IMG/VR virus record: IMGVR_UViG_3300011114_000627
Coordinates: 1-45,407 of that record
DNA from: a virus
DNA length: 45,407 nucleotides
Strand: one strand, 5' to 3'
The notes under the pieces are model-generated. The model saw only the letters and a program-made list of their open reading frames with translations, did no database searches and was not told the origin of the DNA. This document shows, one piece after another, positions 4,241 through 45,407 of the stretch. Position numbers and translations under genes: made by a program. Positions within the stretch are counted from its first letter, which is position 1. Every line of letters starts with the position of its first letter.

Positions 4241-6312
4241 AAAACCTCAGCATCTTTGCGGCATTGAACCTCAAAGCAGCCGAAGCGGGCAAGCCGCGCC
4301 GGTTCTCAATACTCGCCTATTCTGGCGGGACATTGAACGTCGACGGGTTTGACCTGCCTGTCATCGTCGACCTTGCCGGGATGGAGATTCCTGCCAGCGT
4401 GCCAATTCTGATTGACCACACAAAGTCAGTCGAAGCTACGCTTGGATTGACAGACTCCATCGTCAATACCGGCACGTCTCTGATGCTGGCCGGACTCATT
4501 ACCGGTCAATCCGCCACGAGTCAGCAGGTGCTGGCACAAGCCGCAGCGGGCCATCAATGGCAGGCATCTATCGGCGCGATGGTCGGCGACACCGAAGAGA
4601 TCGCAGCCGGTCAATCCGTCTCTGTCAACGGGCAGTCGTTTACCGGCCCGGTGATCGTCGCGCGTCGTTCTGTTCTCCGCGAAACGTCGGTTCTCCCAAT
4701 GGGGGCCGATCCGACAACTTCCGTCAACTTGGCTGCAAAAGCAGCCGGACTTTTGAAAGGAGCGGCTCCCATGTCGTTCGAGCAATGGTGTACGAGTTTG
4801 GGTGTCGATCCTGCAACGCTCAAGGAAGCGGACAAGGCGGCAATGCAGCTGGCTTACGATGCTGCGCAGAATCCACCCGCGACCCCTGCGGCTACTCCTG
4901 CACCAGTCCCTGCGGCTGCTGCGGTTCCAACCCCAGCGCCAGCACTCGCCCCCACGGCATCGGCGGGTGGCGTGCTGAATCTGCAGGCCGCGTTGAAGCA
5001 GCAGAACGATTCACTTGCGGCCAACATGCGACGAATCAGCGAAATCCAAGCCAAGGCGGCTGGTCATCCGTCCATCGCTGCCACGGCCATTGAAAAAGGA
5101 TGGTCGCTCGAAAAGGTGGAATTGGAAGTCCTCAAGGCATCCGATGCCAAGGTGCGGCCAACCAGCTTCCGGTCGGGCGAAAAGAATATCGACAGTGACG
5201 CGGTACTGGAAGCTGCATTGTGCCAACATCGCAAGTTGAACGACGTTGAAAAGTCGTTCAGCCCGGAAGTCTTGCAGGCCGCTCACACGGAATACCGTGG
5301 TCAAATCGGTCTACAGCAGATGCTGATTATGGCGGCTGAAGCTAACGGCCTACACCTGCAAGCCGGGGCACGACTGACGACCGGAAACATGCGAGGCGTC
5401 CTGCAGGCCGCATTCTCCACGGCCAAGCTGCCCGGCATCCTGTCGAACACGGCCAACAAGGAAATCCTGCAGGGCTACATGGAAGAGGATGCGGTCTGGC
5501 GGGAGATTGCATCAATCAAGTCCGTCAACGACTTCAAGACCGTTACGAGCTACCGAATGCTCGACAACATGGCTTATGAAAAGGTTGGGGCGGGCGGTTC
5601 CATCAAGGGTGGAACGGTTGGTGAAGAATCATTCACCCGCGCTGTCGACACATACGCGAAGATGTTTTCCTTGACCCGAACGGACATCATCAACGACGAC
5701 CTCGGGGCGTTCGACGACCTGCGGACTCGTATCGGTGCTGGTGCGGCAATCAAGCTGAATGATCTGTTCTGGACGACGTTCCTGGCGAACCTCGGAACGA
5801 TCTTCACCAGCACTCGCACGAACTATATCAGCGGTTCGACAACGAACCTTGGGACCGATGGCGTGGGCCTGGGGTTGGCACAAAAGGCATGGCGTCAAAT
5901 GCGGTCGCCATCGGCGGACGGCAGCAAGCGAATCTCTGGGAACGCGAAATTCTTGCTGGTTCCGCCAGAACTGGAAACAACCGCTGACGCGTTGTTCGTG
6001 GCACGCAACCCCGGCAGCGTGAAGGTGTCGGACGTGAACACGTTCGCCGGAAAGTACATGCCAATCGTCGCCAATCAGCTGAGTGATTCGGCCTATACCG
6101 GCTATTCGGCGACCGCGTTCTACATCCTGGGCGACAAGTCGAAGGGATCACCGATTGTCGTGTCGTTCTTGGGTGGGCAGGAAACCCCGACCGTGGAATC
6201 GGCGGACGCTGACTTCAACACGCTCGGCATCCAGTTCCGTGGCTACCACGACTTCGGATGCGATCTCGGAGACGGCTACCTGAACGCACTGATGAGCAAG
6301 GGCGCTGCCTGA
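4237..6312 (+). CDS. Prohead protease - major capsid protein fusion
   Basis: A 691-residue polyprotein. Residues 1-170 look like a prohead protease: LIDH with candidate catalytic H61 and WQASIGA with candidate nucleophile S111. Residues 180-310 are an Ala/Pro-rich linker followed by a helical, scaffold-like delta region. Residues about 380-691 are an HK97-fold capsid domain resembling Mu gpT-type major heads (for example GILSNTANKEIL and FSLTRTDIINDD). Such fusions are a known phage class in which the protease releases mature capsid protein. It follows the portal with ATGA overlap. An internal start at 4771 could make a protease-free capsid chain (separate entry). Confidence 0.92.
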   Translation: MKNLSIFAALNLKAAEAGKPRRFSILAYSGGTLNVDGFDLPVIVDLAGMEIPASVPILIDHTKSVEATLGLTDSIVNTGTSLMLAGLITGQSATSQQVLAQAAAGHQWQASIGAMVGDTEEIAAGQSVSVNGQSFTGPVIVARRSVLRETSVLPMGADPTTSVNLAAKAAGLLKGAAPMSFEQWCTSLGVDPATLKEADKAAMQLAYDAAQNPPATPAATPAPVPAAAAVPTPAPALAPTASAGGVLNLQAALKQQNDSLAANMRRISEIQAKAAGHPSIAATAIEKGWSLEKVELEVLKASDAKVRPTSFRSGEKNIDSDAVLEAALCQHRKLNDVEKSFSPEVLQAAHTEYRGQIGLQQMLIMAAEANGLHLQAGARLTTGNMRGVLQAAFSTAKLPGILSNTANKEILQGYMEEDAVWREIASIKSVNDFKTVTSYRMLDNMAYEKVGAGGSIKGGTVGEESFTRAVDTYAKMFSLTRTDIINDDLGAFDDLRTRIGAGAAIKLNDLFWTTFLANLGTIFTSTRTNYISGSTTNLGTDGVGLGLAQKAWRQMRSPSADGSKRISGNAKFLLVPPELETTADALFVARNPGSVKVSDVNTFAGKYMPIVANQLSDSAYTGYSATAFYILGDKSKGSPIVVSFLGGQETPTVESADADFNTLGIQFRGYHDFGCDLGDGYLNALMSKGAA
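4756..4773 (+). promoter_or_regulatory. Strong internal ribosome binding site and start inside the protease-capsid gene
   Basis: AAAGGAG at 4756-4762 lies 8 bases before an in-frame ATG at 4771, Met179 of the fusion. It falls at the boundary between the protease domain and the scaffold/capsid part. Initiation here would yield about 513 residues (MSFEQWC onward) without protease. It parallels nested starts in lambda-like head operons (Nu3 within C). Confidence 0.6.
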
Positions 6313-9578: not shown

Positions 9579-10027
9579 CAACGATTTTCAAAGACACGGC
9601 GGGACATGAATTCTGTTGTTCAGTCACTGCCGGAACGGTGATCGAATACCGGAAGCGTCTCGGCGTGAACCTGAATTCACTGATCGACGGCGACCTGCTG
9701 GACCGCATGGCCACGGATATTGAGTTGTTCGTCAACATGCTCTGGCTGTCCGTAAAGGCATCGGCACCAGCGGACATGACCGACGCGACGTTTGCCGAAG
9801 TACTCGGCGGTGACGTGCTCGAATCGGCACGCGATGCACTGCTTGAGGCGATCATAAGTTTTTTCCCCGCCCTCGCGAGGGGGCCACTGCAAAAGATGCG
9901 GGACAAGGGGAAGGCAGTTCAGATGCTGGCTCTGAATCAAGTGAATCAGGCAATCGACAACCTGACACCCGAAATGATGATTGGATCGAAGAATCCTGCT
10001 GGCAATTCGCAGGCGTCGTCGGGGTAG
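9575..10027 (+). CDS. Tail assembly chaperone, gpG-like
   Basis: A 150-residue protein directly upstream of the tape measure region, the place of lambda gpG. It is helical and acidic, with an AIISFFP segment at residues 94-99. The C-terminal coding end overlaps, in the -1 frame, a sequence encoding a typical gpT-like motif (see next entries), so a fraction of ribosomes probably shifts frame to make a G-T fusion. Such chaperones coat and solubilise the tape measure protein before tube polymerisation. Confidence 0.75.
   Translation: MTTIFKDTAGHEFCCSVTAGTVIEYRKRLGVNLNSLIDGDLLDRMATDIELFVNMLWLSVKASAPADMTDATFAEVLGGDVLESARDALLEAIISFFPALARGPLQKMRDKGKAVQMLALNQVNQAIDNLTPEMMIGSKNPAGNSQASSG
9859..9868 (+). 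other. Candidate -1 ribosomal frameshift site
   Basis: Read in the gpG-like frame, T TTT TTC occupies 9859-9865 and T TTC CCC occupies 9862-9868; both obey the X XXY YYZ slippery rule. The -1 frame has a stop at 9844-9846 and is then open to 10287, so slipping here would give a fusion of about 237 residues. No other canonical heptamer lies in the usable interval. Confidence 0.6.
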
Positions 10028-30179: not shown

Positions 30180-30182
30180 ATG
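30042..30182 (+). promoter_or_regulatory. Structured 5' leader of the replication gene
   Basis: P1: 30042-30058 pairs with 30116-30132 over 17 bases (one G-U). Inside, P2: CCGTGCG (30069-30075) with CGCACGG (30085-30091); an alternative hairpin CGGAAC/GTTCCG (30056-30061 with 30066-30071, loop CGGA) excludes parts of P1 and P2. P3: CGTTTTCG (30131-30138) with CGAAAACG (30153-30160), loop with a GGGGA. P4 abuts it: TCAGAACG (30161-30168) with CGTTCTGA (30173-30180), loop GAGT. The ribosome binding GGAG is in P4's tip and the A of the AUG (30180) is its last paired base, so P4 should block initiation unless opened or bound. Confidence 0.65.
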
Positions 30183-31133
30183 GCTGGCGACTGGATAAAA
30201 ATGCGAGCGGGATTGCTGACCCACCCCAAGGTTATTGGCATGGTAAACCACCTTGCCACCGATCCCGCGTTCTTCAACTTTATCTGTCAGGATGACATCA
30301 CTGGCGGCGACCTTGGCGGGTTTAATCCTGACCCAAAATCCGTAACGGATATCGTAACGCGACAGGCGTTACGCGCCGTTACGGTGTGTGGATTACTGTC
30401 GTTATGGTCGGCTGCTCGCCAGCACTCAGATTCAGGGGTTCTGACCGGATTGACCGTGGATGACCTTGACGAAATGGCAGGTGTGCCAGGGTTCGGGCGA
30501 GCCATGCACAAGGTTGGTTGGGCTGTTGCGGACGAGCATCATAACTCCATAGTGCTACCGAACTTTACGGAATGGAATGATCAGTCACATAAGGGACCGA
30601 CACAGACTAATGCGGAGCGGCAAAAGGCGTTTCGGGAACGACAAAAGAGCCGTAACGAAACCGTAACGAAAAGTAACGTAGAGGAGAGTAGAGGAGAGGA
30701 GAGTAGAGGAGAGAGTAAAGAAGAGTCCGCACGCAGGGATGAAAAGACATTCCTGACAGGACCGTCTGAAGACTTCGACAAGTGGTGGAACACGTATCCC
30801 TGTCGGTCGGCAAAATCGGATGCGTGGAAGGCGTGGCAGGCGGCTGTGGTCACAATCGCATCTGAGCGTGGCATTGACGACGCAGCGTCAATTGCTTGGC
30901 TACTTGGCCGAACCAGGGACTACCGCGATTCAGCGGCCGGGCGAGATCCAGTGAGCGGCGGCGACTTTCGGCCCGCTCCCGCCAAATGGCTGTCATCCGG
31001 GAAGTATGACGACGATCTGAAGGAATGGGCGAAACCGAACGGGGACGCACCGAAGGGTGCCAAGACCAAGCCAAAACTCCCACCGCTGCCACAAAAGGCC
31101 ACTGCGGCGATTCAAGGAATGATGAATGACTGA
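30180..31133 (+). CDS. Replication initiator / replisome organiser
   Basis: A 317-residue protein. The N-terminal 120 residues (GDWIKMRAGLLTHPKV, ATDPAFFNFIC, VDDLDEMAGVPGFG) form a winged-helix DNA-binding domain like those of phage O/DnaD-type initiators. A highly charged linker (about residues 150-185, rich in EESRGE) follows, then DFDKWWNTYPCRSAKSDAWKAW, the WWxxYP motif common to phage replication proteins. It is followed by DnaB with an 8-base overlap, the usual initiator-helicase pairing. ATG 30180 is chosen because GGAG lies 8 bases upstream; iterons lie within its coding sequence as in lambda O. Confidence 0.8.
   Translation: MAGDWIKMRAGLLTHPKVIGMVNHLATDPAFFNFICQDDITGGDLGGFNPDPKSVTDIVTRQALRAVTVCGLLSLWSAARQHSDSGVLTGLTVDDLDEMAGVPGFGRAMHKVGWAVADEHHNSIVLPNFTEWNDQSHKGPTQTNAERQKAFRERQKSRNETVTKSNVEESRGEESRGESKEESARRDEKTFLTGPSEDFDKWWNTYPCRSAKSDAWKAWQAAVVTIASERGIDDAASIAWLLGRTRDYRDSAAGRDPVSGGDFRPAPAKWLSSGKYDDDLKEWAKPNGDAPKGAKTKPKLPPLPQKATAAIQGMMND
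30340..30384 (+). other. Nested dyad of four CGTWACG motifs (candidate origin/operator)
   Basis: Within the initiator gene, CCGTAACGG (30340-30348) and CGTAACGC (30353-30360) are mirrored by GCGTTACG (30366-30373) and CCGTTACGG (30376-30384). Both pairs are exact reverse complements around one centre near 30363. Spacing between like motifs is 10-12 bases, about one helix turn, as for cooperative initiator binding. Confidence 0.65.
30650..30682 (+). repeat. Three 11-bp direct iterons
   Basis: CCGTAACGAAA at 30650 and again at 30661, then AGTAACGTAGA at 30672. They share the GTAACG core with the upstream dyad and repeat at one helical turn. 11 is not a multiple of 3, so the repeat is not a protein-level one. 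Confidence 0.7.
30681..30725 (+). repeat. Nine purine-rich pentamers beside the iterons
   Basis: From 30681 in strict 5-base register: GAGGA, GAGTA, GAGGA, GAGGA, GAGTA, GAGGA, GAGAG, TAAAG, AAGAG. It encodes part of the charged EESRGE linker. The purine strand could form an unusual duplex or an unwinding element next to the iterons. Confidence 0.75.
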
Positions 31134-32415
31134 CTCGAAACTCCCGCCACAGAACCTGACAGCCGAACGTAGCGTTCTGGCGTGCCAGATTCTCGACGCG
31201 ACCACGATTGACGCCGTGCGGGACATCATCGCCCCGACGGACTTCTACGCCGATATCCATACGATCATCCAGCGGGCAATCCTGAAGCTGCGGGACTCAG
31301 GCGTCGAGGCCGATACCGTCACGCTGTCGGAGCAATTAGAGGCCACAGGAGCACTACAGGACATCGGGGGCGTGCCGTACATCCTGGAGATTCTGGAATC
31401 GGTTCCACACACCGCCCACGCGAAGCATTACGCCGGGATCGTGGCCAAGTGTGCCAAGCGTCGAAAGCAGATCGTCATTGCCCAACGGTTGATGGAATCG
31501 GCCTATGACTCGACGGCGGATCATGACGAAATGAGCGAGGCGGCAATGAAGGCCGCGACCGAACTTGCAGACACGACACCGGTCGGCAATCTGCGGCTGA
31601 TGACTGGTGCCGTCGAGGAACTGATTGCCGATTTTGAAAAGGGCGTCACTCCTGCTGTGCGGGTAATGATTCCGGCTGTCGACGCGGCAACGGGCGGCGC
31701 GTGTCCAGGTGAAATGATTATTGTCGGTGCCAGACCGTCCCACGGCAAAAGTCTATTCGCTCTCCAGACACTGGACTGTGCCGCGTACAACGGATGGCCC
31801 GGTCTGATTATCTCCGAGGAAATGGCGGCACTGAGCCTTGCGGGGCGAATGCTGTCATCTATCACGACCCTCCCATCGTCGGACTGGTTACGCGAAACCC
31901 ATCGGCTACGGTTCGACGTGAAGGAACATTTCAACGGTCGGGCACCGATTGTCATTGCGGAAAAGTGTGCCACGGCGACAGGTGCCGAACGAGCCATCGC
32001 AACATCGGTGCGCCAGTATGGCGTCAAGATCGTGGCGGTGGACTATGCCCAACTGCTGAAGGGGACTGGCGACAACGAACAGGAACGCATCGGGGACGTG
32101 TCTCAACGCATGAAAGCGATGGCCACGCGGTACGACCTGATCGTACTGCTGCTGGCCCAACTCAATCGCGGCATCGAATCGCGGGACAACGGGGAACCAG
32201 GACTTGCCGACCTACGAGGGTCCGGCAGTTTGGAACAGGACGCGGATATCGTTTTGTTTCCGTTGTGGCCACACAAACTGAACTCCGACCACGACCCACG
32301 AGAGTATCGCATCTATCAGCGAAAGAACCGAAATCGGGGAATTGGCGAGGCGGTGATCGGAATGCGAATCAACCCCGAACGGCAGCGGCTGGAGGAGGTA
32401 GGAACGGAATGGTAA
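31126..32415 (+). CDS. dnaB: Replicative DNA helicase, DnaB family
   Basis: A 429-residue hexameric 5'-3' fork helicase. The N-terminal DnaB domain spans residues 8-110 (ERSVLACQIL, GGVPYILEILESVP); the RecA-like ATPase has Walker A GARPSHGKS at 201-209, Walker B VAVDYAQLL with D306, and LADLRGSGSLEQDADIVLF followed by KNRNRGIGE near the C-terminus. Length is close to cellular DnaB. Overlaps the initiator gene by 8 bases; no loader is seen, so the initiator may load it. Confidence 0.95.
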   Translation: MTDSKLPPQNLTAERSVLACQILDATTIDAVRDIIAPTDFYADIHTIIQRAILKLRDSGVEADTVTLSEQLEATGALQDIGGVPYILEILESVPHTAHAKHYAGIVAKCAKRRKQIVIAQRLMESAYDSTADHDEMSEAAMKAATELADTTPVGNLRLMTGAVEELIADFEKGVTPAVRVMIPAVDAATGGACPGEMIIVGARPSHGKSLFALQTLDCAAYNGWPGLIISEEMAALSLAGRMLSSITTLPSSDWLRETHRLRFDVKEHFNGRAPIVIAEKCATATGAERAIATSVRQYGVKIVAVDYAQLLKGTGDNEQERIGDVSQRMKAMATRYDLIVLLLAQLNRGIESRDNGEPGLADLRGSGSLEQDADIVLFPLWPHKLNSDHDPREYRIYQRKNRNRGIGEAVIGMRINPERQRLEEVGTEW

Positions 32416-45345: not shown

Positions 45346-45407
45346 ACACCCAAAAAGCCGATGAGCCAGCTTCGACGGGTCCTTCCTAGCATGTTTCATG
45401 CCGATAC

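Follow-up and report, generated by a model that had tools for sequence, protein, structure and literature searches.

The stretch of DNA analysed here (hereafter, the window) is the 45,407-base virus record IMGVR_UViG_3300011114_000627, taken from position 1 to position 45,407. It carries a gene for a replication initiator of 317 amino acids, followed by the gene for a replicative helicase (Table 1). The initiator is matched by two PHROG profiles, both annotated as "replication initiation protein" (2509, with E 6e-34, and 9474, with E 8e-28), and by zero Pfam families at E 0.1, hence neither by DnaA nor by the Phage_rep_O domain (PF04492), and the protein falls outside the lambda O family. The product of the neighbouring gene matches the Pfam families DnaB_C (E 2e-42) and DnaB N-terminal (E 7e-26), as well as PHROG 19. 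In an AlphaFold2 model of the initiator (built from 30 relatives), the mean pLDDT is 70; it exceeds 90 in much of the N-terminal domain and falls below 50 in a linker (residues ~168-195), which is thus predicted to be disordered. The order of helices and strands in this predicted model suggests a winged-helix-like N-terminal domain, and a fold search with the model against solved structures gave no match at E 0.001. Upstream of the initiator gene, the intergenic segment 30043-30159 has a very stable predicted RNA hairpin (z -5.4), for which a search of Rfam returned no meaningful match.

Table 1. Features of the initiator locus (positions in the window).
Feature	Position	Strand	Remarks
Replication initiator gene	30180..31133	+	317 codons; matches to PHROG 2509 and PHROG 9474
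Cluster 1: four CGTWACG, two forward and two reversed, in a nested dyad	30341..30383		Within the coding sequence
Cluster 2: iterons	30650..30678		CGTAACG at 30651 and 30662, AGTAACG at 30672
Seven AGAGN pentamers in strict 5-bp register	30680..30714	+	Directly after cluster 2; proposed unwinding/capture element
DnaB-type replicative helicase gene	31126..32415	+	Start overlaps the end of the initiator gene

Two clusters of the motif CGTWACG lie inside the initiator gene. In the first, near its 5' end, the sites start at 30341, 30353, 30367 and 30377, forming the nested dyad that an earlier, sequence-only reading of this DNA had described. In the second, located in the part of the gene coding for the linker, GTAACG recurs at 30652, 30663 and 30673, in steps of 11 and then 10 bases. 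The three same-core iterons at exact 11-bp spacing that had been claimed for this cluster therefore hold for the two copies of CGTAACG, but not for the third, AGTAACG, which follows 10 bases on; the distance between dyad and iterons, given before as 265 bases, is close to the ~267 bases measured here. Altogether, the window contains seven CGTWACG sites, which is an ordinary number (4.24 are expected, and seven are reached by 17 of 100 shuffles), but six of them fall within a 330-base part of the initiator gene (Poisson P ~1e-12, for an interval picked after the fact). The sole site elsewhere, at 5541, agrees with the expectation that the motif would be almost absent from the rest of the window, although this says little, because one site is just below what chance alone predicts. 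When the codons of the gene were shuffled synonymously, preserving the protein, six CGTWACG sites were obtained in 0 of 2000 shuffles (mean 0.35).

As RNA, cluster 1 (30325-30400) is predicted to form a strong hairpin (z -4.0), so part of the constraint on this cluster could act in RNA, and the 5' dyad might be a hairpin that controls translation or attenuation at the mRNA level. Such folding, however, arises from any DNA dyad; moreover, cluster 2 and the array that follows it have no RNA structure (z +0.8), and the core of the 5' cluster matches that of the linker cluster within genes, a match for which a hairpin has no need. We consider this explanation very improbable.

The pentamer array that follows cluster 2 is built from AGAGG, AGAGT and AGAGA units, on a purine-biased strand. 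The nine purine pentamers in strict register of the sequence-only reading become seven AGAGN units, two of them ending in T, since the last two (GTAAA and GAAGA) are ragged and belong to a purine-rich tail reaching ~30725. The array, which is variable and only seven units long, has a lag-5 score of 0.84, which is attained by 0 of 2000 synonymous shuffles, and the score stays below 0.72 everywhere else in the window. For low duplex stability, the array ranks at the 99.3rd percentile of the record as a whole; one 30-mer of the initiator gene, at 30270, is slightly less stable still. Given that protein-preserving shuffles reproduce neither the sites nor the period (0/2000 for each), the earlier proposal that these periods probably reflect a function of the DNA, and not the codons, is supported.

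In order to collect relatives, IMG/VR was searched with peptide patterns that exclude the array, which yielded 80 loci, reduced to 72 distinct genes by collapsing identical ones (L012, which is cut at a contig end, was retained). Repeated cores stand directly before a 5-bp array in nearly all of these 72 genes. With the window and four named phages added, lag 5 is the best or tied lag (lags 2-14, 10 omitted) in 69 of 77 genes; among the remaining eight, the 12-base iteron period scored higher in five, and L030, L034 and lambda O have no array. The lag-5 score is above all 100 synonymous shuffles in 29 of the 33 dereplicated protein-selected relatives, and the array region belongs to the least stable 5% of its own gene in all 62 relatives with AGAGA arrays (62/62).

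These comparisons bear on a protein-level explanation, according to which a charged EEKRREE-like peptide is required in the linker and the repeats in the DNA are just its by-product. Charged linkers are common in such initiator proteins, and many of the relatives do encode REEKRREE; nevertheless, the period is lost in synonymous shuffles, and it is kept when the peptide changes (to DKTRQ, EESRG or EQSRA), as seen also in the units themselves, which are AGACA/AGATA in L061 and L081 and AGAGG/AGAGT in the window. The arrays use all three reading frames (58, 22 and 6 of 86, counts that are free of the circularity affecting AGA patterns), and the linker is predicted by the model to be disordered. 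Additionally, AGA and AGG account for 81 of the 93 arginines in the arrays, against 83 of the 595 elsewhere in the same 29 genes (the array-bearing ones among 34 protein-selected genes, window included). Corresponding counts from mostly pattern-selected genes were discarded as circular, because the pattern itself fixes AGA, and only the protein-selected count was used. Taken with this evidence, the protein-level explanation is hardly credible.

A scan of IMG/VR for AGAGA arrays found at least 120 loci, with 115 of those listed having enough flanking sequence. Among these listed matches, the array lies in a long ORF on its own strand in 115 of 115, which is partly expected, since purine arrays hold no stop codons on that strand. 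A 6-mer core repeated at least three times within 80 bases was found upstream of the array in 96/115 and downstream in 4/115 of the same listed matches, an asymmetry that is not expected from purine content. The corresponding upstream and downstream counts are 38/80 and 9/80 for AGANB arrays, 35/110 and 15/110 for AGAHA arrays, and 49/116 and 6/116 for AAAGG arrays (109/116 in long ORFs); these last were dropped as a negative control, given that they carry the same layout of repeats followed by an array. Many of 79 array-bearing proteins are assigned by PHROGs to separate replication families (initiation and primosomal proteins, a replisome organiser, and groups resembling DnaD or O), and Lin1244_N is matched by 20 of these 79 sampled proteins. 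As judged from sequence, the array follows divergent iterons in several initiator families. The partner encoded by the next gene also varies among relatives (DnaB helicase, DnaC-like loader, lambda-P-like loader or primase/helicase), which makes the phage helicase or loader a less likely reader of the five-base register.

Whether the pentamer is kept while the iterons change was considered as a further result and demoted to a lead. Among homologous N-termini with less than 50% identity, the pentamer is common to 75-87% and the core to 29-30%, but in two of the sets sampled the pentamer is fixed. Within the AGANB set, it is common to 39% of 28 homologous pairs, against 17% of 638 other pairs, and among 378 protein-selected pairs 79% share the pentamer and 68% the core, which is a small difference. 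The constancy of the pentamer is thus partly a sampling effect. The idea of the purine tract as triplex DNA was also rejected, since many arrays include pyrimidines (AGAGC, AGATC, AGACA), and for the same reason the register looks more important than the purine content. Arrays outside long ORFs were set aside as proof of DNA function, their counts being weak: 27 AGANB arrays (cores upstream in 5 and downstream in 4) and 80 AGAHA arrays (upstream in 23 and downstream in 12), some of the non-coding arrays adjoining terminase genes. Suggestive single cases are L241 (~9713-9810) and L525 (near its end), in which GTCAC repeats are followed by 5-bp units outside a long ORF. Intergenic AGATA/AGAAA arrays also follow short repeated cores in L422, L426, L430, L441 and L459, the neighbour in L441 being the gene for the terminase large subunit.

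In the protein-selected genes, the core of the linker cluster often recurs towards the 5' end of the gene, where it forms another cluster, and both clusters change core type together, the shared types being CGTWACG, GTGACGTAACG, CGTCACG and TGTCCGC/GCGGACA. The window gene has CGTWACG four times at its 5' end and twice in the linker; among named phages, epsilon15 and phiPSA1 have matching clusters, and in TL-2011b a long part of the linker cluster recurs in the 5' cluster. We quantified this correspondence in 199 dereplicated genes, drawn from the protein and pattern searches combined, in which the 5' region averages 7.17 hits to the gene's own linker cores and 1.86 to the cores of other genes. 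Codon shuffling gave a mean of 1.91 hits, and 0 of 10,000 permutations attained the observed mean. At least one own-core hit is present in the 5' region of 171/199 genes, and none in 28/199. For the 29 protein-selected genes alone, the averages are 12.0 (own) versus 7.8 (other), again with 0 of 10,000 permutations. An alignment version of the match is weaker, with 39 of 197 genes above the 99th percentile of unmatched pairs and 103 of 197 above the 95th. In the window itself the match is not specific when taken alone, because several other linkers share as many 7-mers: its 5' part has seven in common with its own linker and six to seven, by mixed chance, with those of phiPSA1, lambda and P22 (the counts over the linkers compared are 0, 7, 2, 4, 1, 1, 3, 7, 6 and 6).

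A palindromic cluster located soon after the start codon could also be a self-repression operator and roadblock, with which the initiator shuts off its own operon while replication starts elsewhere. In iteron plasmids, inverted repeats do act as operators, and the core match between the two clusters would fit an operator plus an origin. What this reading leaves unexplained is the recurrence of the 5-bp array beside the linker cluster, together with its low duplex stability, and we regard it as unlikely.

The 5-bp array is not universal among phage initiators. It was found in 0 of 13 distinct usable genes with the lambda O domain (PF04492); a separate set of 80 lambda O relatives, nearly identical to one another, was left out of the comparisons. 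The array was looked for and is absent in TP901-1 rep, and it is also absent from Renna12 and from a Porphyromonas phage relative. The P22 gene 18 and lambda O origins have no 5-bp period (lag-5 score of 0.56 for lambda O), the array of Carin1 is irregular, and the Phage_rep_org_N set offered two usable genes, one of them masked. In cellular genomes, only 40 of 102 AGAGA arrays are part of a long ORF, and other contexts are frequent. A relative borne on a Pantoea plasmid (L875, 601-1542) has CGTAACG repeats and no array, and is possibly a decayed or altered origin. In Escherichia phage TL-2011b (L869, 895-1180), the 5' and linker clusters match, and the purine step is apparently of six bases instead of five.

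Several of these elements have counterparts in known systems. In lambda, according to a review (PMC5043065), the A+T-rich origin region has nearly all purines on one strand, and this purine-asymmetric region beside the iterons opens upon O binding; the initiators of lambda, P22 and L were each proposed (PMC8022706) to bind different iterons within their own genes. The window gene resembles lambda O, P22 gene 18 and phage L gene 18 in having iterons inside the initiator gene, then an easily opened, strand-asymmetric region adjacent to them (here, the array), and then a helicase or loader gene. It differs from lambda O and P22 gene 18 in the 5-bp period at the putative origin, and from lambda-type iterons in general, which are ~18-20 bp long and each an inverted repeat, in having a 7-bp core with a spacing of 10-12 bases. 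The comparison with lambda made from the sequence alone was therefore right about the placement of the iterons, but lambda O has neither the 5-bp period nor a second cognate 5' cluster (0 shared 7-mers).

Another review (PMC10797057) describes the basal unwinding system of oriC, in which DnaA boxes lie beside DnaA-trios, a short-period tract bound on opening, and ori2 of Vibrio cholerae chromosome 2, whose unwinding element contains repeats of a 5-base motif that the initiator RctB recognises. The window likewise has putative initiator boxes adjoining a short-period repeat tract, although with a period of five instead of three and an initiator that has no DnaA Pfam match; by analogy, the 5-base repeat unit would resemble that of ori2, but with another motif and another initiator, and ori2 is not a phage gene. 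Gram-negative PICIs (PMC6092414) also have repeat sets near the initiator with a melting region, but their origin is situated 3' of the gene and its AT-rich region has an iteron set on either side, while in the window the elements lie within the gene and the array is to one side. Own-gene iterons (PMC8022706; as a proposal), 3-base trios and 5-base RctB motifs (PMC10797057) are thus already in print. Our searches of open PMC papers found no description of a 5-bp array in phage initiators or of a second cognate cluster.

The best-supported reading, already put forward by the sequence-only reading, is that of a candidate replication origin inside the initiator gene, given the PHROG initiator matches, the DnaB gene next to it, the features that go beyond the protein and their recurrence in relatives. 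More precisely, we propose, with a probability of roughly 75% and on the strength of sequence comparisons, a lambda-like origin embedded in the initiator gene, in which an unwinding/capture element with a 5-bp period is accompanied by two cognate clusters of binding sites. What the computation establishes is that the sites exist, that they are constrained beyond what the protein demands, that in relatives the repeats recurrently precede the array, and that the two clusters have matching cores. From the order of iterons, array and helicase gene, which resembles that of lambda, and from the low stability of the array region, we infer a mechanism in which the N-terminal domain of the initiator would bind CGTWACG half-sites, both at the palindromic 5' cluster and at the linker-coding iterons; assembly on the iterons would then open or capture the adjacent purine-biased, 5-bp-periodic array, where the helicase encoded next door may be loaded. 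The 5' cluster, having the same core and no array, could be a second docking site, either for looping or handcuffing or as a means by which the initiator, once abundant, limits itself. Points that weigh against the origin reading are the GC skew, which had been suggested as a check and shows no turn over the window at 30.3 kb, and the shortness and variability of the window's own array.

A wider and more tentative idea, which we think possible but rather less than evenly likely, is that the pentamer array may be a general phage counterpart of the DnaA-trios: a one-strand, five-nucleotide register that would be read at opening by an initiator oligomer (or by a host factor) and that would persist through exchanges of iteron cores and helicase partners, with the duplicated cluster as a built-in control site.

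Few phage origins have been mapped so far, and matching repeat clusters together with a five-base array offer a signature that is simple and open to testing in several initiator families. The long-standing question of how an initiator opens the DNA and marks the site for the helicase becomes testable by recoding a few bases while preserving the protein, for instance in phages amenable to laboratory work such as epsilon15 or phiPSA1. If the array is a counterpart of the DnaA-trios, phage origins could be predictable from sequence in many initiator families.
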